Made by a program: the position numbers and the translations under genes
Notes under the pieces: model-generated
Databases searched by the model: none
Told to the model about the DNA's origin: nothing
Seen by the model: the letters and a program-made list of their open reading frames with translations, nothing else
Part shown: positions 4,309 to 22,747 of the stretch, in pieces
How positions within the stretch are numbered: the stretch's first letter is position 1
Layout: each line of letters starts with the position of its first letter
Source: Chrysochromulina parva
Lineage: Eukaryota; Haptophyta; Prymnesiales; Chrysochromulinaceae
Direction: 5' to 3'
Length of the DNA: 22,747 nt
Assembly: GCA_002887195.1 (NCBI GenBank)
Contig: PJAB01000641.1
Span: 1 to 22,747 of the forward strand

Positions 4309-4533
4309 CGGCGAAAGTGCAAGCAAGCAAGCTATTCGAATCACATCCTCCTCCACATGGCAAAGACCGAGGGTACATCAACTATAGAAAGTCCTTGCTT
4401 TCTCGCTTGAATGTGCAACTGAGGTCTAGGGGACCTCACCTAGAATACCCGGTATCTCCGACGGAGAAATTTCAATCTTTCGAACAGTTCCTACTTTCAA
4501 CGGTCTCGCGTGCTCAGTTGTGAAAAAAACGAA

Positions 4534-7149
4534 ATGTTCCTACGCTCGGGCACAGCCTTTGCCCCCCTCTTCCTGCTTACCGCGCTCGACGGCGCGTCTG
4601 GCTGGGTGGTCACCTCGCCGCGAGCGCAGTTCAGCAATGCTGCAGCGAGCACTACACCGGGCTATTACAACTCTGGTGGCACGTTGTGGAGGAACCCCAA
4701 CAGCTTCAGCCTGGATACTCAAGCGGTTCGTTGGGGTGCTACGCCTTTTACGCACACCTATGGTGCAGGAACCAGTTGCACTGGCGCCGTGACCGAGCCG
4801 TCATCGTATACACCGTTGACAAGCGGGCTGAATGGTGGGATCACCTTTGCCTTTCACAAGGACTTTTGTACGAATCTTCTCCATCTCTTTCCCGAAGAGA
4901 ACCCAACGGGCGAGGGCAAGGAGACCACCTTCCTGACGTGCGAGGAGCTGCGGGATGTCGTCGCGCGAGCGTTCAACACGTGGGCGATCAATCACCGCTC
5001 GATCTCCTTCAAGGACGTGACCGACAAGTGCGTCGACGTCACCACGACGAGTGGCTGCGAGCACGCGGAGATCTTCATCGTCTCCGGGGCCAGTAACAAC
5101 GGCGCCACCTCCACCACTGGCGACCAGGCAGCGCTTGCGATCACTTCATTCAGACAGGGCCGCGTGTGGACGACGGCAGGCCAAAAGATCGCCGACAGCT
5201 TCGAGATCACGGGTGCCATTATGTATGTGCGCGCCCCCGCGTCGACGAAAGAATTTTGCTGGTACCTAGACTCGACCTTTTGCTTCTGGTTCCACAAGTG
5301 GAATGACAGTGGAACCGACGTGATCCTGATTGGACGCATCATTGCGGGAGTCCTCTTCATTCTCGCGGTCATGGCGATGTTGTGGTGCTTGGTCATGACC
5401 GCCTCCGCCGCGTTTTGCCTGCCCAAAGTGGATCTGGGCGTCGTGGGACAGGAGGGAGAAGATGAACTGTCCGTCAAATCGCCGGGGAGGGTGCCGCCTT
5501 CCGTCCCGCCGTCGCCGTCACCGTCGCCGCCCGAGCCTGCAAACAGCCGAATGTCCAAATTCAATGCATCGAAGTCGTTCAACGATGTCTTGTCTGGGCT
5601 GGGCACGGCTGAGGGGGTGAACAAGTACGGAGACGAGGAGGGGTTGACGTGCGGGAGCAAACGGCTGACGAATGTGATTGAGTACGTGGCAGTCATGCCG
5701 ACCATCACACTGCTGATTGCGATCTTCTGGATCATCTGTGCGCCTATGTTCTACTACCGCATCTTCATCCCGTGCTGGGACTGCCACGGCTTCGAGGCCG
5801 CAATCGCCCACGAGGTCGGGCATGTGCTTGGCTTCCACCACCCGGATCAGGAGTGGCGGCACAACCTGAAGGCCAAGTACCCGATGAACCAGACTTCGTG
5901 CACCACGCCGCTCAACCACGTGCTCCTGTCCAATACTGCTACCGCCGCCACAGCACCGGAGCACCTGCCGACTGAATCGATCATGTTCTCGCAGTCGCTC
6001 TTCCGATACCGCACGTGCCTCTCGGCAGACGACCTCGAAGGACTCAACTTCCTGTACCCGACCTGCAGTGGCGCCTTCGAGCCTCTCGACACTGCCGACG
6101 GCCCGCAGCCGCTGTGCATCAAGGGGCGCAACAGCTCGGGATGGCTGCGCTTTCTCTTCATCGTCGCTGTCCCGTTCCTCATCTCTTCTACATTCATTGT
6201 ACTGGTCCAGATGTGCGTTCGCCGCGAGCAGCGTACACGTCGCAAGTCACTCGAGGCGACGGCCATGCGGCTGCGTGCGCAGCGCTCGGCGCTCGTCGAT
6301 CAACTTAAGAAGCGCACCATGGCCGCGACTACGAGAGCGCCCGACGGCACCACTCCACGCGGCGGAAGGATGCAGAGCATGATGAAGCTCATGGGCACCT
6401 CGAAGAATCTGACGAGCACGGCTGAGCAGGCGGCCGTGTACGTTTTGCGCGCCGGCGGCGACGAGAAGATGGGCTTCGTCCAGGCCTACGACCCCAAAAC
6501 CAGCGTCTACACGATCAAGCTCGACGGTTCGGGCATCATCATGCAGGCCCCCGGCGCAAAGTTGCGTCCGGCGGGGCCACAGCTGGGCCAGACCGTCCTC
6601 GTCTCGCGCAGCAACGGCGACGAGAAGAAGGCCGTCATCGACGCCTTCGACCCCGCCACCAACAAGTACACGGTCACCTTCGCAGGTTCGGGCCTGAGCG
6701 TCGTCGTCGCCGCCGATAAGGTGCGCTCAATGCGTGTCAGCATGGCTAAGCGCCAGGCCTCCCGGGCCAACGTCCTCGATGCCGAGCTGGCCGCCCAGCG
6801 TGAACAAGCCAAGGCCATGGAGGCGGCGCAGAAGGCCAAGCAACAGCTGGCAGCGGCCAGGGCAAACATGGACCAAGCCGAGCGCACCCGTCTCAAGGCA
6901 GCTGAGCTTGCGGCCATTCTCGCAGTGGCGGAGGAAGAGGACCGCAAGATCGAACGCGAGGCCACAAAGGACCGGCGCGCGAAGGTTAGCTTTGGCGCTG
7001 GCAACATGGGGGTCTCGGGCTATTGGTCTGCGAATAAGGAGCCCACTCCAGCTTGTGCGAAACCTAAGGTGCGTCCCAAGACCGAGCGTAAGGCCAACCC
7101 GAAGGATGAGCTCGAAGCGGCCATGACCGACCTCGCTGTGAATGCTTGA
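4534..7149 (+). CDS. Membrane-anchored matrixin-like zinc metalloprotease
   Basis: This is an 871-residue protein from the first ATG at 4534, followed by a signal-peptide-like hydrophobic stretch (2-26). The zinc site is HEVGHVLGFHH at 426-436 (ligands H426, H430, H436; general base E427), with a likely Met-turn ESIM near 481-484, as in metzincins of the matrixin (M10) type. CEELRDVVARAFNTW (about 130-150) and CWYLDSTFC (about 244-252) suit the N-terminal half of such a domain. Between the halves lie membrane spans at about 263-296 and 381-411 flanking a Ser/Pro-rich loop; a third span is at about 537-562. With an outside N terminus, both halves of the protease lie outside and the tail inside. 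The tail has two tandem beta-rich repeats (about 634-680 and 686-733), then a coiled coil (about 740-820). No cysteine-switch propeptide was recognised. The protease call is strong; the substrate is unknown. Confidence 0.85.
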   Translation: MFLRSGTAFAPLFLLTALDGASGWVVTSPRAQFSNAAASTTPGYYNSGGTLWRNPNSFSLDTQAVRWGATPFTHTYGAGTSCTGAVTEPSSYTPLTSGLNGGITFAFHKDFCTNLLHLFPEENPTGEGKETTFLTCEELRDVVARAFNTWAINHRSISFKDVTDKCVDVTTTSGCEHAEIFIVSGASNNGATSTTGDQAALAITSFRQGRVWTTAGQKIADSFEITGAIMYVRAPASTKEFCWYLDSTFCFWFHKWNDSGTDVILIGRIIAGVLFILAVMAMLWCLVMTASAAFCLPKVDLGVVGQEGEDELSVKSPGRVPPSVPPSPSPSPPEPANSRMSKFNASKSFNDVLSGLGTAEGVNKYGDEEGLTCGSKRLTNVIEYVAVMPTITLLIAIFWIICAPMFYYRIFIPCWDCHGFEAAIAHEVGHVLGFHHPDQEWRHNLKAKYPMNQTSCTTPLNHVLLSNTATAATAPEHLPTESIMFSQSLFRYRTCLSADDLEGLNFLYPTCSGAFEPLDTADGPQPLCIKGRNSSGWLRFLFIVAVPFLISSTFIVLVQMCVRREQRTRRKSLEATAMRLRAQRSALVDQLKKRTMAATTRAPDGTTPRGGRMQSMMKLMGTSKNLTSTAEQAAVYVLRAGGDEKMGFVQAYDPKTSVYTIKLDGSGIIMQAPGAKLRPAGPQLGQTVLVSRSNGDEKKAVIDAFDPATNKYTVTFAGSGLSVVVAADKVRSMRVSMAKRQASRANVLDAELAAQREQAKAMEAAQKAKQQLAAARANMDQAERTRLKAAELAAILAVAEEEDRKIEREATKDRRAKVSFGAGNMGVSGYWSANKEPTPACAKPKVRPKTERKANPKDELEAAMTDLAVNA
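6433..6730 (+). repeat. Two tandem ~48-residue repeats in the protease tail
   Basis: Within the metalloprotease gene, two coding repeats share the pattern V.V.R..GDEK...(I/V).A(Y/F)DP.T..YT(I/V)...GSG. They begin about 50 residues apart. The short beta-strand pattern resembles SH3-like or Tudor/KOW-like barrels. They lie on the predicted cytoplasmic side. No ligand can be inferred. Confidence 0.6.
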
Positions 7150-7987: not shown

Positions 7988-9253
7988 CTACGGCTCGCCC
8001 TTCCTCGCGGCCGATCCAAAGAGGACCGCCTCGCTCCGGGCAAGGCGCGGCGTGATCAGTGGGCCGCCGTCGGGCGGATGCACGACCAGCTTCAGTACGA
8101 GTGAGTAGCGTGGCCGGTCGCCCGCGAGCGCGTTCGGTGCGGTCACTGAATGCGTGATGTCCTGATCCATCAAGATGAGACGGCCGGGCGAGGGCGTCGT
8201 CTCGAGCACCCGGGCAGTGGGTGTGTCCAGGAACCGTGTGGGCGCCCCCCACTCGGCCCTCCACTCAGCCGGCAGGTAGAGGAGCGCCGTAACGAACCTT
8301 GGCCGCCCAGGATCTCGATTGGGGTACCGGCTGTAATAGTCGGTCCAGGGCGACGGCGGTAACAACATCGGGTCAGCGTCGATGTGCCAATTGAAGGCAG
8401 CCCGATCCTCAGCGGCGGTGGGCGCGTTGGCGGCAAGCGGCGGCACCTCATCGCCGAGCGCGGCCGGCGGCATGCGGCACACGGTGCATGCTACTCCCGG
8501 ATTCGCGGCATCGATCAGCAACTGCAGCCTGGACTGCAGCTCAAGCACAGGCCCGGGTGTTGGCGATTGCGAGCAGAGGCGCCCCAGGGCGTCATCCGTG
8601 AGGCCCCAGCTCAGCGCGCCTTCGGATTTGTCACCGAGCACGTCGCGGAAGCCCTCACGCTCCCAGCAGAGCACGTCGGGCCCCGCGTCTGGCTGCCAGC
8701 CCGCGGCGCTCCCCAGCAGGCCCAGCAGCCGCGAGCGGAGATCATCGTCGATGACACCGTCGTACACGGCGACAGTGGAGCAGTCCCAGCGGCCGTTGAT
8801 GATCGCGCCGTCGAGCTCCACGTGCATCACCTCCCGCGCTAGATCTGCCGTCCACGTGGTAGGCGTCCGGCTCACGGGACGCTGCAGGTCCCACTGCTCA
8901 GCGTGAGCTGCTCTAGCGGCGTGCAGCAAGTCGACGTCTGAATCTACCTCGTTTGGTGTGAAAGCTATGAGGATGGGTTCGGTGCCTGCCTCGAGCTCGT
9001 CGTCGAGGCAGCCAAGCATTTCATCGACAATCTCCGTGCTTTCCATGTCCTCATCCAACTCCAGGCCATGCAGCGCCGCCATCCGATGAGGGATGCCATG
9101 CACGGTATGAGCTTCAAAGCTGATGCCGGTCACTGCAGCCGCTGCTTCAAGCACCGCCGTCGCCTCGGAGTTCGTAAGGCCGCTCACGAGCAAGCGTGGA
9201 CGGTGATGGAGCAGGGAGCACTGGTACACGTGAAAGAGAAAGAGAGAGGCCAT
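7988..9253 (-). CDS. 2-oxoglutarate/Fe(II)-dependent dioxygenase
   Basis: This is a 421-residue protein from the first ATG at 9253; the upstream frame is open but starts with no ATG. The C-terminal half is a double-stranded beta-helix oxygenase. The iron triad is H290-x-D292 in FNWHIDADP and H368 in MDQDITHSV, and R382 in RPRYSLVLKLV fits the 2-oxoglutarate-binding arginine. The strand RFVTALLYLPAEW lies between the metal motifs, as in prolyl-hydroxylase-type enzymes. The N-terminal 120 residues (RLLVSGLTNSEATAVLEAA ... EPILIAFTPNEVD) form a separate alpha/beta module that weakly resembles DUF3783. No signal peptide or membrane span is evident. The substrate (protein prolyl/lysyl, nucleic acid or small molecule) cannot be told from sequence. 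The next gene leftward is convergent; the carboxypeptidase gene upstream is in the same direction. Confidence 0.85.
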   Translation of the reverse strand: MASLFLFHVYQCSLLHHRPRLLVSGLTNSEATAVLEAAAAVTGISFEAHTVHGIPHRMAALHGLELDEDMESTEIVDEMLGCLDDELEAGTEPILIAFTPNEVDSDVDLLHAARAAHAEQWDLQRPVSRTPTTWTADLAREVMHVELDGAIINGRWDCSTVAVYDGVIDDDLRSRLLGLLGSAAGWQPDAGPDVLCWEREGFRDVLGDKSEGALSWGLTDDALGRLCSQSPTPGPVLELQSRLQLLIDAANPGVACTVCRMPPAALGDEVPPLAANAPTAAEDRAAFNWHIDADPMLLPPSPWTDYYSRYPNRDPGRPRFVTALLYLPAEWRAEWGAPTRFLDTPTARVLETTPSPGRLILMDQDITHSVTAPNALAGDRPRYSLVLKLVVHPPDGGPLITPRLARSEAVLFGSAARKGEP

Positions 9254-9577
9254 CAAGGAACCTGCGGAGTCGCATCCTAAACGTTGGCTGTGAACTATAC
9301 ACCGGGGGGAGCCGGGACACACACGAGACAAACACGAGACATACACACGGGACACGCGGGCGAACTGTACCGGTAGACAGTTACACTTGCTCAGATTATG
9401 AAGCGTTTACGGGCCGTGCCTAGCAATAGGTTCCCGGAGCCAAAATGTAACCGGGTAACCGGGTAACCGGGAGCAGGAGCTTGCGGAACGTCCGCAACGA
9501 TCCCTACACAGCACACCGCATGGGCGCATGCGCATCTCAGCCATCACCGCAAGGTCGAGAGAACGGCGCGCGCACGC
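9254..9577. other. Intergenic, promoter side of the oxygenase gene
   Basis: These 324 bases lie between the 3' end of the carboxypeptidase gene and the start of the oxygenase gene, both on the minus strand. They contain ACACGAGACA-like short repeats (about 9310-9360) and three tandem GGTAACCG units (9447-9471). No gene was seen. Confidence 0.6.
9447..9471. repeat. Three tandem GGTAACCG units
   Basis: An 8-base unit, GGTAACCG, is repeated about three times without interruption. Its core GGTAACC is palindromic, so protein binding is possible. It lies about 200 bases upstream of the oxygenase start codon. Confidence 0.7.
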
Positions 9578-10930: not shown

Positions 10931-11179
10931 TCTTTTGTGAGAAGCAGGCCCTGATGAGAATGCAAGCGGCGCAGCCAGAGCTCAAAACACGGGGGAGGGC
11001 GGAAAGACCCCACCCCCAGGGTGCACGCCGGTTCGCACTCCCAGTGTCTGGTCGCTCCGCAGACTTTTTTCCCGGTGTGGTGAGGAGACCGCCCGCCCCG
11101 CCCCGCGGAGTCAGCGTGCCCGTGCGTCTCGCGGCGTGAGGCCTCTTATCGGGTGGGTGGAGCGAACGCGACGACTGCG
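10931..11179. promoter_or_regulatory. Probable divergent promoter region
   Basis: These 249 bases separate the starts of the carboxypeptidase gene (minus) and the PAH/CAF-1-like gene (plus). They must hold both 5' regions. There is a T-run (about 11065-11070) and C-rich stretches, but no convincing TATA box. Confidence 0.4.
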
Positions 11180-12093
11180 ATGCGGGGCGCGCACGCATCC
11201 TTGAATGCCAAGCTAGAGGAGGCGATTGACTTCCTCGAGAGCATCAAAGCGCGCCAGGGAGTACTCGCATTCAACGAGTTCCTCTTAATCATGAAAGAGT
11301 TCCAGAAAGGCCTACCGACGAGCGAGGTGTATCGCAGGGCTACTGTGCTGTTTGCTGGCGATACCGAATTGTTTGCGGGCTTTGTCAAATTCCTGCCGAA
11401 GAAGCATGAAAAGACCTGGGAACAGGGAATTCCAGCCAATGCAGAGACGCGCAAGGTCCACGATGATGCACAAGCTGCTGCCTCAGCCCTGCTCGCCAGA
11501 CGGCGGGACTCTATCAAAACTGCGGCCGCTCTGTACGATGCGGTCGCAGGTTCGCTGCCCATGGATGAGCCAATGCATGGGGCGGGCCCCGAGTCGACCC
11601 CCGAGTCGGCGCCTCCGACACTGTCGTGCCCGCCGGCGCCTCCACCCGAGGCAGGCTCCGCCGTGGAGCTGGCCGTGCGGTTCTCTGCAGGCTGCGTCGT
11701 CCCGATCAGCAAAGAGCCTGGCGCGCCTCCCTCAAGCCAGCCTATGCAAAGCGCCGTGGCGAGCTCCGAACCACCCCGGCCGTTGACTCTGGGCATGCAG
11801 GTCGCCCCCGTGAGAGGTCCGAATGCTCCGTTCCCTACCCATCCCCCCAAGCCCATGGCGGCAAGCGTGGAGCAGGCGCTTGACTTCCTCATGCTCGTCA
11901 AGCAATTCACGTCCAAGAGCGAGTACAACACCTTTATCCAGATCATGACCTCGTTCAAGGCCAAGAAGATGAACACCACCGAGGTGTACGCGCGGATCTC
12001 GATCCTCTGGGCTCACTACCCTTACCTGCGAATCAACTTCCACTCATTCCTTCCCAAAGACTTTGGCGAGGTGCAAGTGTTTCCTCACCCGCT

Positions 12094-12146
<53 letters not shown>

Positions 12147-13639
12147 AGCGGTGGGAAGGGTCGCAATCGGGATGCCTTCCAACGCCGCCAGCCCTGTGGG
12201 CGCCGCCGGCCGCGCCGGCGGAGCCTGCGTTGTGGAGGCCGCCGATGCCTCACGCGCCGTGGTCGGCGGCGACTATGCCTCCGCCGGTTGTGGGCAGCCG
12301 GATTGAGGACAAGGCTTCCGGTGGCTATTGGTCGAATGGTTTCTGGATCGATGGACGCGGGAAGGATGTTCATGGACCGAGGCCGAAGCCGCACTACAAG
12401 CGCGTTGTGCCGATGTCCGAGTTGCCGCGGCTCGTGAGGCTCGTGCACGGAAGCACGGCCGGCCTTGAGGTGATGACCGACTGGTTTCTGAACGAGATGC
12501 CTAGAGGGCAGTCGTGGCCGTCGAAAGCGCAGGTGATGAGTCAGATTCGGACGCTCGCTCAGTACAAGCGAGTCCCCGGCTCCAGCGATTTCTCACGTGG
12601 GTACTGCTGGCAAGTCGACCCCGCGAAGCTGGCTAGTACGGGCATCGAGATGGAGCTGCCCGAGATCGGCGATCTGCGACTATCTGGCGCCGATTTGAGG
12701 GCCGCCGATCCCGTCGATGCTCCCTTGCCGACCCCGTCTAGCTCAGCCAGCACGCAGGTGGGCTACGCCGCGGTGCCAGAAGGTAGCACCTCGACGACCG
12801 AAGGCGGCAGGCAGCCAGAAGGCACTCAGCGCGCCAACGTTGAGCGTGCGCGCCACAGCATGCCGCCCGACAAGCCTCCGTCCAAATTCGCGCTCGGTAC
12901 CCGGCGCAGGGCCGCAGATGGAGATGAGTGGGAGGTGAGGAGGACGGATGCCACGCGAACCCTGACGAACCCCTGACGAACCCCTGACGAACCCCTTGAT
13001 GACCCCTGACGAACCCATGGCGCGCCTCTCGGCCGTCTTCTCGGCCATCGGCTCCGCGCTCCCCTTCTCAGCCCCATCAGCTCACACAGGGGTTCGGCTG
13101 GGGTTCGTCCCCTTCGTTCCCCTTCTCTGCCCCACACGCTCACAGCTCGTGTGACTTCCACGCGCGTCTCCACAGGTGGATCTGATCGGCGGGCTCCACA
13201 GTTGGGTCCCGGCCGCCATCGCTGCACAGCCCCCGGGGCACGGCCAGTGGGGTTCCTCTTCCGGGAGCTCCTCTGCGCGCAACTGGGCGCGGCGCGGCGC
13301 GGGGGCTGGGGCTGCATCGAGGCCGACCATCACGGGAGAGGCGGTCGCTTCGGCCCTCGCGGCAGAGGCGGCTGCTGCGGCTAGAAGAGCGGCTCGGATA
13401 GCGGCTAACAAGTCTCACCATGCTCTGGTGGACGCAGCTGGAAAGCCCAATGCGGGCGCAGCCACGCACGAGCTGCCTCCGCGCATGCAGGTTTCGGCAC
13501 GGGGGTCAGAGCAGCGGCCGCCCAAAACCAAGACGGCGGAAGCGGCGGAGCTCATCCACAAGGCACGAAAGGTCCTACTAGGCACGTCTGCGGCGGCGGC
13601 CGCGGCGGCGTCGACGGTGGCGGCGGAGACGTCGGCTGA

Positions 13640-18390: not shown

Positions 18391-18787
18391 AAAGTCGACT
18401 AGCCACGCGTGCAACCGCCTAGATCAATTCATTACCGCGGAGATCAATATATAGCGGAGCTGGCGGGCCCCGGTCCTTCCAGCACACATACATGTAAGTG
18501 GGAGACAGTAGACACCAGTAAGCGAAGGCCTGCAAAGTAGAAATCTCGGCATACGGCTGAGCAGGGCACGTCCACTTGCGAATTCACAGAGCCTTCTCTG
18601 TGCGTCGCGCTCGCAAAAGCGGCGCGTGACCAAACTCGTCGTGAGAGTTTTGCGAACGCGCCGCTCGCTTTTTGCGCACGCTTTTTGCGCTTTGCGACCT
18701 GATCATGTCGACCACAGACTTGAACAACGCGCTCCACCACACGCGATCGTTTTTTTTGCGCACGCTTTTGCGCTTTGCGACCTGATC
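18391..18787. promoter_or_regulatory. 5' region of the histone-fusion gene, with a duplicated start segment
   Basis: These 397 bases separate the small membrane protein from the histone-fusion start. A TATA-like AATATATAG lies near 18445-18453. A perfect 10-base inverted repeat (AGCGGCGCGT 18618-18627, ACGCGCCGCT 18656-18665) can form a hairpin just before T-runs. An ~80-base segment that includes the start codon is duplicated. The upstream copy has its own ATG at 18705 and stops at 18783-18785, two bases before the main ATG. Confidence 0.5.
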
Positions 18788-18832
18788 ATGTCGACCACGG
18801 ACTTGAACAACGCGCTCCACCACACGCGATCG
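18669..18832 (+). repeat. Tandem ~80-base duplication spanning the start codon
   Basis: Copy 1 (18669-18749) and copy 2 (18753-18832) differ by one T in a T-run and one A/G change. Both contain the sequence for [15 protein letters not shown]. The copies are 83 bases apart at the ATG and therefore in different frames, so copy 1 gives only a 26-codon upstream open frame. Confidence 0.9.
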
Positions 18833-21800
18833 TCGAGAGAGCCGGCCGTTGAGCTAGTGAGAGGCACTTGGAAGTCGGTGGAAGACTTCTCCCGTCCTCG
18901 ATCGACATCGCTCTTTGGCGCGTCCATCATCAAGGTCCTCAAGCAGGTGCATCCCGACACGCACCTCTCGCCCGAGGGCAGCCGCATCGTGGAGGACATG
19001 CTCGCCGAGAACTTCCACACCATCTCCATGTGTGCGTACAAGGACTTCGGCCCCGCCTTCTCCGCCATCATCGGATCTACCAGACTCGCACCAGAGGCGA
19101 AAGCCGCAGCAGAGCCGAAGTTGGTGGCAGGCAGTCTGCCAATGCAAGCACTCACACCTCCGGTCGCAGCGCCTGCACCCGTAGCAGAGCCTAAGTTGAT
19201 GGCAGGCACCTGGGCGACGATAGCGGCAGTGGCCACGGCGGCAGCGGCCGCGGCGGCGGCGGCCGCGGCGGCGGCTGCCGCGGCGGCGGCGGTGGGGTGG
19301 GTGGAGGAGCAGGCAATGGTGGCGGCGGTGGTGACAGTGGTGGCGGTGGCGACGGTGGCAAAGGCGGCCACAGTGGCAAGGTTGGCGACGGTGGCTAGCC
19401 TGCTAATGCAAGCACCAACACCTCCCGTCGCAGCGCCTGCACCCGTCGTTGTTATCGGCAAGAACATGGGCGGCGGCCAACCGATGGACACAGCTCCGCC
19501 TGGTCCGCCTGGTCCGCCTGCGGCCCCTGCCAGCAAGAAGGCACCCTTCGATCGCGACCAGGCGATCAACTACTTGACCAAGATCAAGACACGCTTCGCC
19601 AAGCAGCCCGAGACGTACATTTCCTTCCTCGAGAAAATGCACACGTGCCAAAAGGAGAAGGAGACCATTTTGGAGATGTACGAGCAAGTCTCTCACCTCT
19701 TCGAAGGCCACGCCGACTTGCTCAGCGAGTTTTCGCAGCTCCTGCCCGACGGCTCCGCGGAGTCAATCGCCGAGCTGGCATTTTCACCAGAAGACTTTGA
19801 GGCGCCACAGCAGCCCGCGGCCATCTCCACGGCACCGCCCGCACTGCCCCGTTCTCTTTTTCCTGATGGCATGGCGTCCGCTGATGGCAAGGTCGCTCCG
19901 ACCTCGAGCACGGACTCGTCGGCACCCGCGCAGTGCACCGCCGGCTGCGGCTTCTTCGGCAGCGCCCACACTGGCGGCATGTGCTCCAAGTGCTACAAGG
20001 AGACGATCGACCACCTAGGAACGAAATCTAAATGGGCGATTTTTGATAAGCTACCATTTGCGGCGTGGCTCGACGCAATACGGGCTGAGGAAGGCGATGA
20101 CTATCATCCAGATTCTAGTCCAGATGCCGTCGAGGGAGTCGAAGATGCCGTCGAGGGATTTGACATCCAAGGCGCTGTGCACCTCATCCTTGGCGGCGAG
20201 CTCGCCAAGCATGCCGTTTCAGAGGGCACCAAGGCTGTCGTGTGCGTCGCCTGTCTCGCGCCTGGAGCCTAGAGCCCGCCAATGACCCTCCCAGCCTCCC
20301 TGTCTCATTGCTGTCCGACTCCGCCACCCCATCCCGCTATTCCTGACTGACCTCCGCCACACTCACCGCCATCCCCACCGCGTCACCCCCACCGCGTGCA
20401 CGTCGCAGCAAGTTCCACAGCAACTCGATGGATTCGAGGTATTCGTGCGACCGCGCGAGCAAGGCCGGCCTGCAATTTCCCGTTGCGGTCGTCGGCCAGC
20501 TCCTTGACGCGCTCACTGGTGGACGCGCGTCGGAGGACGCGGCCGTCTACATCGCCGCGGTGCTCGAATACCTGACGGCGGAGATCCTTGAGCTGAGCGG
20601 CAATATGGCGCGCGATAACCGCACGAGCATTATCGTGCCACGTCACATCTTCCTCGCGATTCGCAACGATGAGGATCTCAACCGTCTCTACCGCGGATCG
20701 ATCTCCGAGGGCGGTGTGATGCCTCACATTCATGCTCTCGTCAGCTCATTACCGGACGACTCCATCTTTGTGTGTGGACGCGAACCCGACGGCACGCTGA
20801 TGGTGCCAACAGGGGAGCTGTTCGAACAATCCAAGGTGCGCTCTGATCCGGCAGCCGACACGCCGTCATTGGACGAGAACTGCAAGAACCTGGCTGAGAG
20901 GGCGAAGGCGGAGCGGAAGAAGCTCGCGGCAGAGGAGCAGCGAGCGCTAGACGGTGGCCATTGCATCGAAGAGTGCGATCTAGCGTTTTCGCTGGCAAAG
21001 CTGACCAAGGGTCCGAAGGGATTCGAATACGAGGGGCCTCTCGAGCTATACCTGGCTGCCGAGGGTCCGACCGAGAGTGGCGAGGACCTTGGCAAAGGCC
21101 TCGTGGAAGACGGCGGAAAACCCTTGCGGCATTTCCGTGACAACATCCACGGTTTGACTCCAAGCTGCTTGCTTCGCCTGTGCGCTCGTGCGGGCGTGAT
21201 CAACATCTCCAAGGAGGTCTTTGAGGAGCTCCGCGGCATCACCAAGGTCTTCCTGGAGAGGGAGATCCGCCACGCGGTCACCATGTGCGAACACGCCCGA
21301 CGCCGCACGGTGTTGGCGTCCGACGCCCTTGTCGGGTGGGTATCGAGGAGTCGCGAGTGCGACGCGTATTCGATGACTCTTTATGGCCACGGGCTGAACC
21401 AGGATATGCTCCTGCGCGAGGCGGCGCGACAGCTGCCCACCTCCGATGGGGTGGCAGTGAGTGGCGGCTCACGCATCGACTGGAGTGCCGAGGTCGACCA
21501 GCAACTGGAAGACGACAAGGCGACCGTCGAGGAGGCGCTCGAGGAGCTGCGGGAGGCTGCAAAGGAGGAAGAGGATGCCGCTGCAGAAAGGGCAGCTCGC
21601 AGAGCGCGCCGTCGAGTGGCTGACGACGACGATGACGACGACGACGATGACGACGTTGACGACGATGACGACGATGACGACGAGGCAGGGAAGAAGAATG
21701 GCCGGGATCTCAAATCGCTGCGTGCAGCGTCGCGGAACCTCGTCAAGACCGAGCAGCGCGGCTACCAAGGGCCGGTCTTCCCCTTTGGTAGCTTCGTTCG

Positions 21801-21999
21801 CCTCGTGGCAGAGATCGGCGAGGATTTCAAGACGGATCTGACCTACGAGCCGCGCTACATTCGCGTCCTGTACGACCGAACCGAGGCGTACCTGGTCAGC
21901 CTTCTCGAGGACGCCAACTTGATCGCCATCCATCGCGAGTCCGTCCCCTTGCCCTACGACTTGCAACTTGCCCGGCGCATCCGTGGCGAGCGCGCCTAA
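18788..21999 (+). CDS. Four-histone fusion H2B(PAH-A20 insert)-H2A-H4-H3 (two exons)
   Basis: The proposed exons are 18788-20241 and 20409-21999, giving 1014 residues. The ATG at 18788 is the second copy of a duplicated start. Domains: H2B helices 1-2 (about 38-95, with [10 protein letters not shown] identical to H2B); a low-complexity Ala/Val linker; a Sin3-type PAH domain (254-321); an A20 zinc finger with Cys 383, 387, 399, 402; H2B helix 3 and C-terminal helix (457-490, [15 protein letters not shown] identical to H2B); H2A (500-596, [12 protein letters not shown]); H4 (722-813, [13 protein letters not shown]); an aspartate run (890-910); and H3 (921-1014, ending at RIRGERA exactly as H3 does). 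H2A acidic-patch residues are kept, while canonical H3 and H4 tails are missing. If 20242-20408 is not spliced, the locus is two genes: H2B-PAH-A20 (stop 20270-20272) and H2A-H4-H3 (ATG 20428). Domain calls are strong; the single-protein model is moderately strong. A specialised chromatin role is inferred. Confidence 0.85.
18899..19072 (+). other. H2B domain, N-terminal half (helices 1-2)
   Basis: [18 protein letters not shown] aligns with the H2B helix 1 and loop 1, and [16 protein letters not shown] with helix 2. After about residue 90 the similarity ends abruptly where H2B loop 2 should begin. Confidence 0.85.
19201..19400 (+). repeat. GCG / GGTGGC low-complexity tract in coding sequence
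   Basis: In the main frame it encodes 18 alanines and then a Val/Ala-rich stretch (residues 151-206). In another frame it reads as Gly/Ser/Asp/Arg-rich, like a flexible linker, until TAG at 19396-19398. Copies of [10 protein letters not shown] in the main frame flank it on both sides. Confidence 0.75.
19547..19750 (+). other. PAH domain inside the split H2B
   Basis: [46 protein letters not shown] and LLPDGS follow the four-helix pattern of Sin3 paired amphipathic helix domains, closely matching in length. It is more like Sin3 PAH domains than are the two PAH domains of the gene at 11180. Confidence 0.85.
19934..20011 (+). other. A20-type zinc finger inside the split H2B
   Basis: The spacing C-x3-C-x11-C-x2-C, with GCGFFGS and MCSKCYKE, is diagnostic of A20 zinc fingers, many of which bind ubiquitin. 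Such fingers are common in stress-associated proteins but are not known to me inside a histone. Confidence 0.9.
20156..20241 (+). other. H2B domain, C-terminal half (helix 3 and C-helix)
   Basis: [20 protein letters not shown] and the following SEGTKAV align with H2B helix 3 and its C-terminal helix, with near identity over [15 protein letters not shown]. The reading continues as VKFHSNS in the next exon if 20242-20408 is removed, resembling the usual TKYTSS end of H2B. Confidence 0.9.
20242..20408 (+). other. Inferred intron joining H2B to H2A-H4-H3
   Basis: The donor GTGCGTCGCC and acceptor CACGTCGCAG give 167 bases, phase 2. CTGAC branch-like words lie at about 20344-20352, roughly 60 bases before the acceptor, followed by a C-rich stretch. 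Joining restores a natural H2B end and stays in frame with H2A. A second possible acceptor at 20420 is also in frame. Confidence 0.65.
20452..20742 (+). other. H2A domain
   Basis: [43 protein letters not shown] and [10 protein letters not shown] align along the whole H2A fold and docking segment. The six acidic-patch positions are all acidic. Several basic residues of helix N and loop 2 are replaced. The basic N-terminal tail is missing. Confidence 0.95.
21118..21393 (+). other. H4 domain
   Basis: [55 protein letters not shown] and TLYGHG align with H4 from its helix N to its end. The acetylatable Gly/Lys tail is absent, and the loop-1 KRIS arginine is replaced (INIS). A spacer of about 125 residues separates it from H2A. 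Confidence 0.92.
21622..21684 (+). repeat. Aspartate-coding tract between H4 and H3
   Basis: GAC/GAT codons give 11 Asp, one Val, 8 Asp and a Glu. Such acidic runs are typical of histone chaperones and can mask histone DNA-binding surfaces. It follows a basic cluster (RRARRRV). Confidence 0.95.
21715..21996 (+). other. H3 domain
   Basis: [33 protein letters not shown] and [13 protein letters not shown] align with the H3 fold to its very last residue. Positions before about GYQG match only weakly the H3 helix N, and the tail carrying K4, K9, K27 and K36 is absent. Confidence 0.93.
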
Positions 22000-22747
22000 G
22001 CATGCTGGTGGCGTCAGCGGCAACGCGTCGAACTGAGGTCTGAGCGGTTCTCATCCGGTTGCGGTGGCGGCGATTTTGAGTGAGAGTGCTCTATCTGAAC
22101 GCGAGAGAACACGAGCTACCCCGACAGTGCGTCGGAACAAGGCCGGGGCCCCTGAAAGCCCTGATTTGCGGGTAGTGCAGTGGGGGGATTTCCATTTTCG
22201 GAGAAGGTGATCGGCTACTAACCGACACATCTGAAGTGCTAAGTGGTTGAGTATAAGGATTAAGGTGGGTGAGTTCGATACGTGGTGAGTTCGATCGTCT
22301 CGCTGATGCCTGATCTCACACGCGCCGACAGTGTTCGGTTGCGCGCATGCGCGGCAACCGCCGCGGGTGTGCGGCGCGCGGCGTCCGACCGTTTGGCGTC
22401 GCCGCGCGCGGCGCGCTGGCCGCTGCGCGCGCTCGAACCCGCCGCAACGCCGGACGGCGGGAACGAGCGCACTGCGCGCTCGCACGTACGAATTTACGTA
22501 TCGTACCAATGAAAACAGGGCGGCTTGCGCTTGGCGGCCCGAGGTTGAACCTGTGCGCTGTGGAGTGTGGAGCAGCGCCCGTGCGTCGCTGGGTCCATAA
22601 GGCACGCTCCACGCCTCCACGCGCGCACCAGCTCGCACAGCACCTCCTACCACCAGCGTCCTCCCATGCGTCCTCCGTCGCCCGCGGCCCGCGCGGCGGC
22701 GCCAGCTCGCACAGCACCTCCACCAGCGTCCTCCCATGCGTCCTCCG
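22000..22747. other. 3' flank of the histone-fusion gene, no gene recognised
   Basis: No stem-loop of the canonical replication-dependent histone mRNA type was seen just after the stop, which suggests ordinary polyadenylation. Further on there is a direct repeat of GTGGTGAGTTCGAT-like sequence (about 22265-22295), a very GC-rich block (22320-22480), and a repeat cut by the window end. Open frames on the minus strand are Arg/Ala-rich and unconvincing. Confidence 0.6.
22628..22747. repeat. Direct repeat at the window end
   Basis: A segment of about 50 bases starting CCAGCTCGCACAGCACCTCC (22628-22677) recurs at 22702-22747 with a four-base deletion. The spacing is about 72 bases and the second copy runs to the window edge, so more copies may follow. 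Confidence 0.8.

Follow-up and report, generated by a model that had tools for sequence, protein, structure and literature searches.

A haptophyte locus encoding the four core-histone folds, with an opened H2B and a predicted single-chain format

Reviews accept fused core histones with certainty only from giant viruses, and these fusions have been discussed as possible relics of nucleosome origin. Thirteen giant-virus quadruplets (HQA, HQB and HQC) are known, with linker medians of 12-56, and they are never found alongside other histones (PMC11222145). A mimivirus-related metagenome-assembled genome (MAG), ERX552270.89, carries a quadruplet in the order H2B-H2A-H4-H3 (PMC9145170). A further type described in print is the viral triplet accompanied by a separate H4. 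No confirmed eukaryotic fused histone was found in the open-licence literature, and a search there with nucleosome-mimic terms returned no matching work. Here we analyze a locus of the haptophyte Chrysochromulina parva, located on the 22,747-nt contig PJAB01000641.1 (C641, hereafter the window) of assembly GCA_002887195.1, which comprises 45.07 Mb in 2199 contigs. The locus encodes the folds of H2B, H2A, H4 and H3, predicted to form one chain of 1014 residues in which H2B is interrupted by a domain-bearing insert. This chain could well act as a mimic of the nucleosome face and a recruitment scaffold, not as a DNA-wrapping histone, a reading to which we give a little under an even chance.

The window chain has the same format as the viral quadruplets and is not filed among them; a viral setting for it is unlikely. 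It shares with them the four core-histone folds in one chain (on the predicted splice for the window, directly in uninterrupted environmental relatives), the order seen in ERX552270.89 and the predicted in-chain pseudodimers. It differs from them in residing in a eukaryotic genome that also encodes ordinary H3, H4 and H2A, in the length of its linkers (about 116 and 154 residues, plus 371 residues inserted in H2B) and in having a predicted intron, an opened H2B, PAH and A20 domains and near-neutral cores. The viral locus L046 (IMGVR_UViG_3300013005_002754 of IMG/VR, 907-2479), an H2B-H2A-H3 triplet with a divergently oriented separate H4, resembles the window chain in fusing its histones and in placing H2B immediately ahead of H2A; in contrast, its H2B is unsplit, its H4 separate and its core charge +6, and no added Pfam-type domain is visible by eye. 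The H2B-H2A and H4-H3 doublets of Marseillevirus and Melbournevirus also form in-chain pseudodimers, and the predicted H4-H3 model of the window matches 9cvt_C and 7n8n_A; these are, however, two separate viral doublets solved with DNA, and the alignment identity is only 16%. Residues 27-345 of the environmental relative P0008 adopt in prediction the fold of the single-chain H2B-H2A chimera 6w4l (52% identity), which unlike P0008 is engineered and has no insert. A PAH domain is shared with the SIN3 co-repressors; SIN3 has several PAH repeats and a deacetylase interaction region, whereas exon 1 of the window gene contains a single PAH and a zf-A20 only (Pfam matches up to E 0.1), the PAH lying within a histone fold. 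Finally, the histone domain of SOS (1q9c), matched by the models, is a eukaryotic in-chain double histone fold not used for DNA packaging, yet it has two folds, belongs to a cytosolic Ras activator and lacks a four-histone set.

The forward-strand open reading frame (ORF) at 20428-21999 encodes 523 amino acids in which H2A, H4 and H3 follow one another without an internal stop, as a sequence-only reading of this DNA had claimed. Searches with type-specific hidden Markov models (HMMs), made from a few ordinary histones, were the check which that reading had proposed; they assign all four histones in the order and places it gave, with E-values from 1e-8 to 9e-34. Along the spliced chain, H2A matches at residues 498-596 (20446-20742, E 9e-34), H4 at residues 713-792 (21091-21330, E 8e-21) and H3 at residues 947-1013 (21793-21993, E 2e-18). 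The Pfam Histone model also matches (E 2.5e-17), and the best hit among PDB H2A chains has an E-value of 8.7e-32. H2A retains its acidic patch by residue comparison, and H3 is devoid of its N-terminal tail, the match covering model positions 67-134 of 134. The H2A-H4 linker (about 116 residues, 20743-21090) is modeled with low confidence, and the H4-H3 linker (about 154 residues) contains an Asp-rich acidic run evident in its sequence at 21622-21684; the linker between H2B and H2A is short. The H4 and H3 regions begin without a Met and no stop codon separates H2A, H4 and H3, so that the reported mark of mis-annotated animal histone fusions, a start and a stop for each histone, is absent. Canonical histones are small proteins of one fold each; this locus has three folds in one ORF and four on the predicted splice.

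The upstream ORF, from a start at 18788 to a stop at 20272, opens with an H2B-like part and further encodes a PAH domain together with an A20 zinc finger. Helices 1-2 of H2B are encoded near its start (18914-19036, chain residues 43-83, HMM E 1e-8, best PDB H2B match 2.5e-8). Helix 3 and the C-terminal helix lie at the very end of exon 1, adjoining the junction and H2A (20150-20241, residues 455-487, E 3e-12), also match when an ordinary H2B is used as query against the genome itself, and are finished by 20409-20415 past the intron. Between them the two halves make up nearly the whole H2B fold, which is interrupted at helix 2/loop 2 by about 371 inserted residues (19037-20149), a feature that is new here. 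The insert is composed of an Ala-rich linker, a PAH (paired amphipathic helix) domain of the kind known from SIN3 (19610-19744, Pfam PF02671, E 4.9e-10) and an A20-like zinc finger (19934-19999, PF01754, E 1.7e-9), both above the Pfam cut-off. H2B is accordingly no simple N-terminal domain; its second half had escaped the sequence-only reading, whose proposal of a four-histone chain with added regulatory domains in a eukaryotic genome is supported. The 5' end of the gene, ATG and first codons included, is duplicated in tandem at 18680-18830, producing two start contexts in different frames.

A second copy of the gene, copy B, is spread over contig C1772 (H2B to H4) and the end of contig C1071 (H4 to H3). 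Its amino acid identity to the window chain is about 81-85% over most of the length and 75% over one short stretch, and DNA similarity to the fetched stretches of these contigs spans window positions 18759-22079 and no others. From its sequence, copy B looks like a dispersed, intron-bearing duplicate; its insert contains the PAH domain and lacks the A20 finger owing to in-frame length differences.

The joining of H2B to the other folds by one intron, already suggested from the sequence alone, gains credit from this comparison. The interval contains 71 in-frame GT/GC-AG pairs, 28 of them with GT, among which the pair 20242/20408 stands out. Removal of this predicted 167-nt intron (20242-20408, GTGCGT...GTCGCAG) would join exon 1 (18788-20241, ending in codon phase 2) to exon 2 (20409-21999: end of H2B, H2A, H4, H3 and stop) in frame, giving a chain of 1014 residues, the very length stated in the sequence-only reading, and one protein would then carry all four core histones. 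Copy B has the identical GTGCGT donor and GTCGCAG acceptor around a 155-nt intron, with the frame maintained. Across the junction the window reads TKAV-V-KF and copy B reads TKAVTKF; the K and F thereby restored are found also in the uninterrupted relatives P0008, P0049, P0059 and P0074 and are invariant in all five rows, that of the window included. In the environmental protein P0003, which is 55% identical, the residues at the start appear to be read through the same intron end. As a splice control, a canonical H2A with an intron was taken on contig C159, where its second exon was not found.

The window chain is no one-off and has a diverse set of environmental relatives. Two protein searches over 5.77 billion sequences provided the best 120 of 210 and the best 120 of 370 matches, many of them animal gene-cluster predictions; the fetched proteins bearing no animal or plant name, with P0057, P0087, P0107 and P0120 left out, form a set of 39 environmental proteins that were scanned. 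Fifteen of the 39 have the split H2B, H2A, H4 and H3 in one uninterrupted ORF, nine have the order H4-H2B(split)-H2A-H3, four have an unsplit H2B (P0177, P0203, P0192 and P0207, the last two repeating parts of the histone set) and 11 are partial or devoid of H2B. The split H2B recurs in the 24 proteins of the first two groups, its first half being weak in P0171 and undetected in P0127, and wherever both halves are detected the break falls between model positions 43 and 56 of 87. Chance is excluded by the HMM E-values, by copy B and by these 24 proteins, which carry all four folds and an H2B split in the same way. A protein nearly identical to the window chain exists in the environmental data with 58 member sequences; no split member bears an organism name among the matches listed. 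In a tree of the concatenated folds, a branch with 100% bootstrap separates the split members from canonical, viral and unsplit sequences. Support is likewise 100 for the cluster of the window with copy B, P0002 and P0003, and for the node that adds P0008 to it; it is weak (41-82) at several deeper nodes of the family.

In most family members the H2B insert measures about 50-150 residues (P0204 was mis-cut in the insert listing). The inserts of the P0008, P0049, P0074 and P0140 groups have in common a domain of about 54 residues, chromo-like by eye only, for which Pfam and PDB searches returned nothing above noise. P0198 has a RING finger before H4 (E 1.8e-6). An SKP1-like N-terminus considered for P0125 fell below the cut-off (E 0.21) and is not claimed. 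P0192 and P0207 show a near-canonical H4-H2B-H2A-H3 followed by a second H4, a C-terminal piece of H2A, a second H3 and an acidic tail; Pfam lists a PB1 domain in P0192.

Twenty-seven rows were compared residue by residue, namely the window, copy B, P0002, P0003 and 23 others; P0001, P0004-P0007, P0009, P0060, P0073, P0084 and P0202 were left out as twins, partial sequences or near-duplicates. Besides the acidic-patch list and the contact residues, the residue labels include H2A R29, H3 R63 and H2B R86; H4 R45, H3 R83 and H2A R77/R42 (R78/R43 in yeast) are also named in PMC11050016. The eight acidic-patch residues are canonical in 202 of 210 cells of this comparison and the seven DNA-inserting arginines in 17 of 183. 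Other DNA-contact K/R positions are canonical in 118/397 cells, other acidic core positions in 339/520 and all remaining core positions in 3531/6729. The window retains a single one of the seven arginines, H2A R42, and thus departs from canonical histones, which have basic tails and DNA-inserting arginines. In the 21 rows whose four cores are each covered to 80% or more, the summed fold-core charge ranges from -12 to +4, against +23 for canonical histones; it lies between +14 and +21 in the four unsplit quads. Contacts between the two H3 are kept in 80/126 cells and the H4-side contacts to H2B in 49/131; H3 D123 is retained in 25/27 rows and H113 in 19/27. Structure prediction gives an in-chain H2B-H2A pseudodimer for P0008 and an in-chain H4-H3 pseudodimer for the window.

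With the docking surface kept and most DNA-gripping residues lost, the protein is likely a nucleosome look-alike and not a DNA spool. PAH domains are known to bind helices of transcription factors, and A20 fingers to function in the ubiquitin system. Once intron removal has joined H2B to H2A-H4-H3 as predicted, the two halves of H2B would fold with H2A, and H4 with H3, into the two in-chain pseudodimers suggested by the models. Two chains might then associate by way of the H3-H3 contact, which is kept in part, and so build an octamer-like body that would grip DNA poorly and display the acidic patch, a surface on which chromatin factors commonly dock. SIN3-type partners may be held by the PAH domain, with the zinc finger as a possible link to the ubiquitin system, and the chain could gather, titrate or relay chromatin factors alongside the ordinary histones of the cell. 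With slightly less confidence, the environmental relatives may constitute a family of single-chain 'dummy nucleosomes' in eukaryotic microbes, having an opened H2B with interchangeable recruiter domains and the acidic patch as bait and having given up DNA wrapping, so as to offer a DNA-free surface on which chromatin proteins are gathered, titrated or ubiquitylated. A eukaryotic four-histone family would mean that such fusion also arises or persists in cells keeping ordinary histones. A histone body with the acidic patch and without the DNA grip would offer a natural means of telling nucleosome functions that require DNA from those for which the protein face suffices, and the insertion in H2B indicates that a core histone fold can open to carry hundreds of residues.

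Several points weigh against a mimic or scaffold. Retention of 80/126 H3-H3 and 49/131 H4-side contacts makes an octamer-like body uncertain. The viral control L046 has one of the same seven arginines (three as K/R), and Marseillevirus nucleosomes wrap DNA although several such arginines are unconserved (PMC9145170), so that arginine loss alone does not exclude wrapping. Whole-chain charge, -50 for the window, does not discriminate, since two unsplit quads are also negative. The acidic patch lies partly in conserved helices and its retention may serve the fold; L046 keeps six of the eight residues. The A20 finger, missing in copy B, is not essential to the type. Constraint between the two copies is weak, with an omega of 0.69 (95% CI 0.55-0.88) for the whole and of 0.58-0.78 for three parts taken separately, with upper limits of 1.01-1.15.

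The strongest competitor, doubtful without being negligible, is a working nucleosome former, employed in a particular chromatin state or stage of life, in which two chains would assemble a DNA-wrapping octamer after the manner of the viral quadruplets. Such a role would suit a four-fold format shared with viral quadruplets, for which protection of about 148 bp in E. coli is reported (PMC11222145), the predicted pseudodimers, the retention of H3 D123 and H113 and the failure to find a free-standing H2B gene in the assembly, where only the two fused copies matched and which may be incomplete. It is at odds with the long acidic linkers. The nucleosome-like particle envisaged by the sequence-only reading is also made doubtful, as far as DNA wrapping is concerned, by arginines mostly lost, cores near neutral or negative, the missing H3 tail and an insert in the loop region where H2B meets DNA. 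That the gene belongs to a giant virus, whether its contig is itself viral or the gene was inserted into host DNA, is improbable. Viral fused histones are known and the P0008 model matches viral as well as cellular doublets by fold, yet the fused gene has cellular neighbors, ordinary histones elsewhere in its genome and a predicted spliced structure. Furthermore, the folds are 45-60% identical to canonical histones, against less than 30% for viral doublets (PMC13088155), which would suggest a later eukaryotic source, the tree including a single viral reference. Nor did six queries against viral contigs confirm a relative, although the same queries also missed L046.

That the two ORFs are neighboring genes, one for an H2B-PAH-A20 protein and one for an H2A-H4-H3 triplet, and are never joined by splicing appears most improbable. 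Each ORF of the window has its own start and stop, and copy B offers an in-frame ATG farther upstream, where the sequence of exon 1 is read in a different frame. By contrast, in copy B neither the predicted intron nor the interval from the junction to H2A contains an in-frame ATG, the stop of the first ORF sits within the predicted intron, and both parts occur, with the junction residues unchanged, in relatives that have an unsplit ORF. A decaying or nearly neutral duplicate without present role would accord with the omega values, whose upper limits by part approach or exceed 1, and with the large length changes in the insert; we hold it to be about as improbable as the viral origin. The copies align over 923 codons with zero stops in either; 19 of the 21 exon indels are multiples of three and the other two (1 and 23) add to 24, as against none of the two in the intron. 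Together with the omega values, this pattern indicates that constraint between the copies is real, if weak. The near-identical environmental protein and the acidic patch kept family-wide equally speak against decay.

Pattern scans of 2.9 million viral contigs with A2, P0203, P0177, P0196, the window ORF and A3 (four split-family or window queries and two unsplit quads) confirmed no relative, within their short reach; L046 was returned by none of the six, so that these scans say little about distant viral quads. A control scan with the genome's own H3 retrieved one viral triplet, L046, and a scan with the L046 triplet only L046 itself. Bacterial and archaeal genomes gave 121 pattern matches and six confirmed loci. 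No fused chain was found in L048, L049, L050 and L053; the first three have ordinary separate histones and the part listed of L053 no histone frame of at least 90 aa.

Contig C710 of the genome carries an ordinary H3 whose tail is complete, and C2110 an H3 variant; ordinary H4 (98% identity) is encoded on C2014 and C1712, ordinary H2A on C1965 and C118, and a partial H2A on C159. The cellular neighbors of the fused gene in the window are a dihydrouridine synthase, an S10 carboxypeptidase and a second PAH protein. The nearest named relatives of the dihydrouridine synthase come from two haptophytes, Tisochrysis lutea (66%, covering 53% of the query) and Prymnesium parvum (50%, covering 79%), with dinoflagellates next. 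Elsewhere in the window, a large protein at 4510-7149 (+) has a weak, below cut-off matrixin-like zinc site, a 2OG-Fe(II) oxygenase-like protein is encoded at 7988-9355 (-), and the second PAH-domain protein, of 607 aa with two PAH matches, is encoded at 11153-12976 (+).

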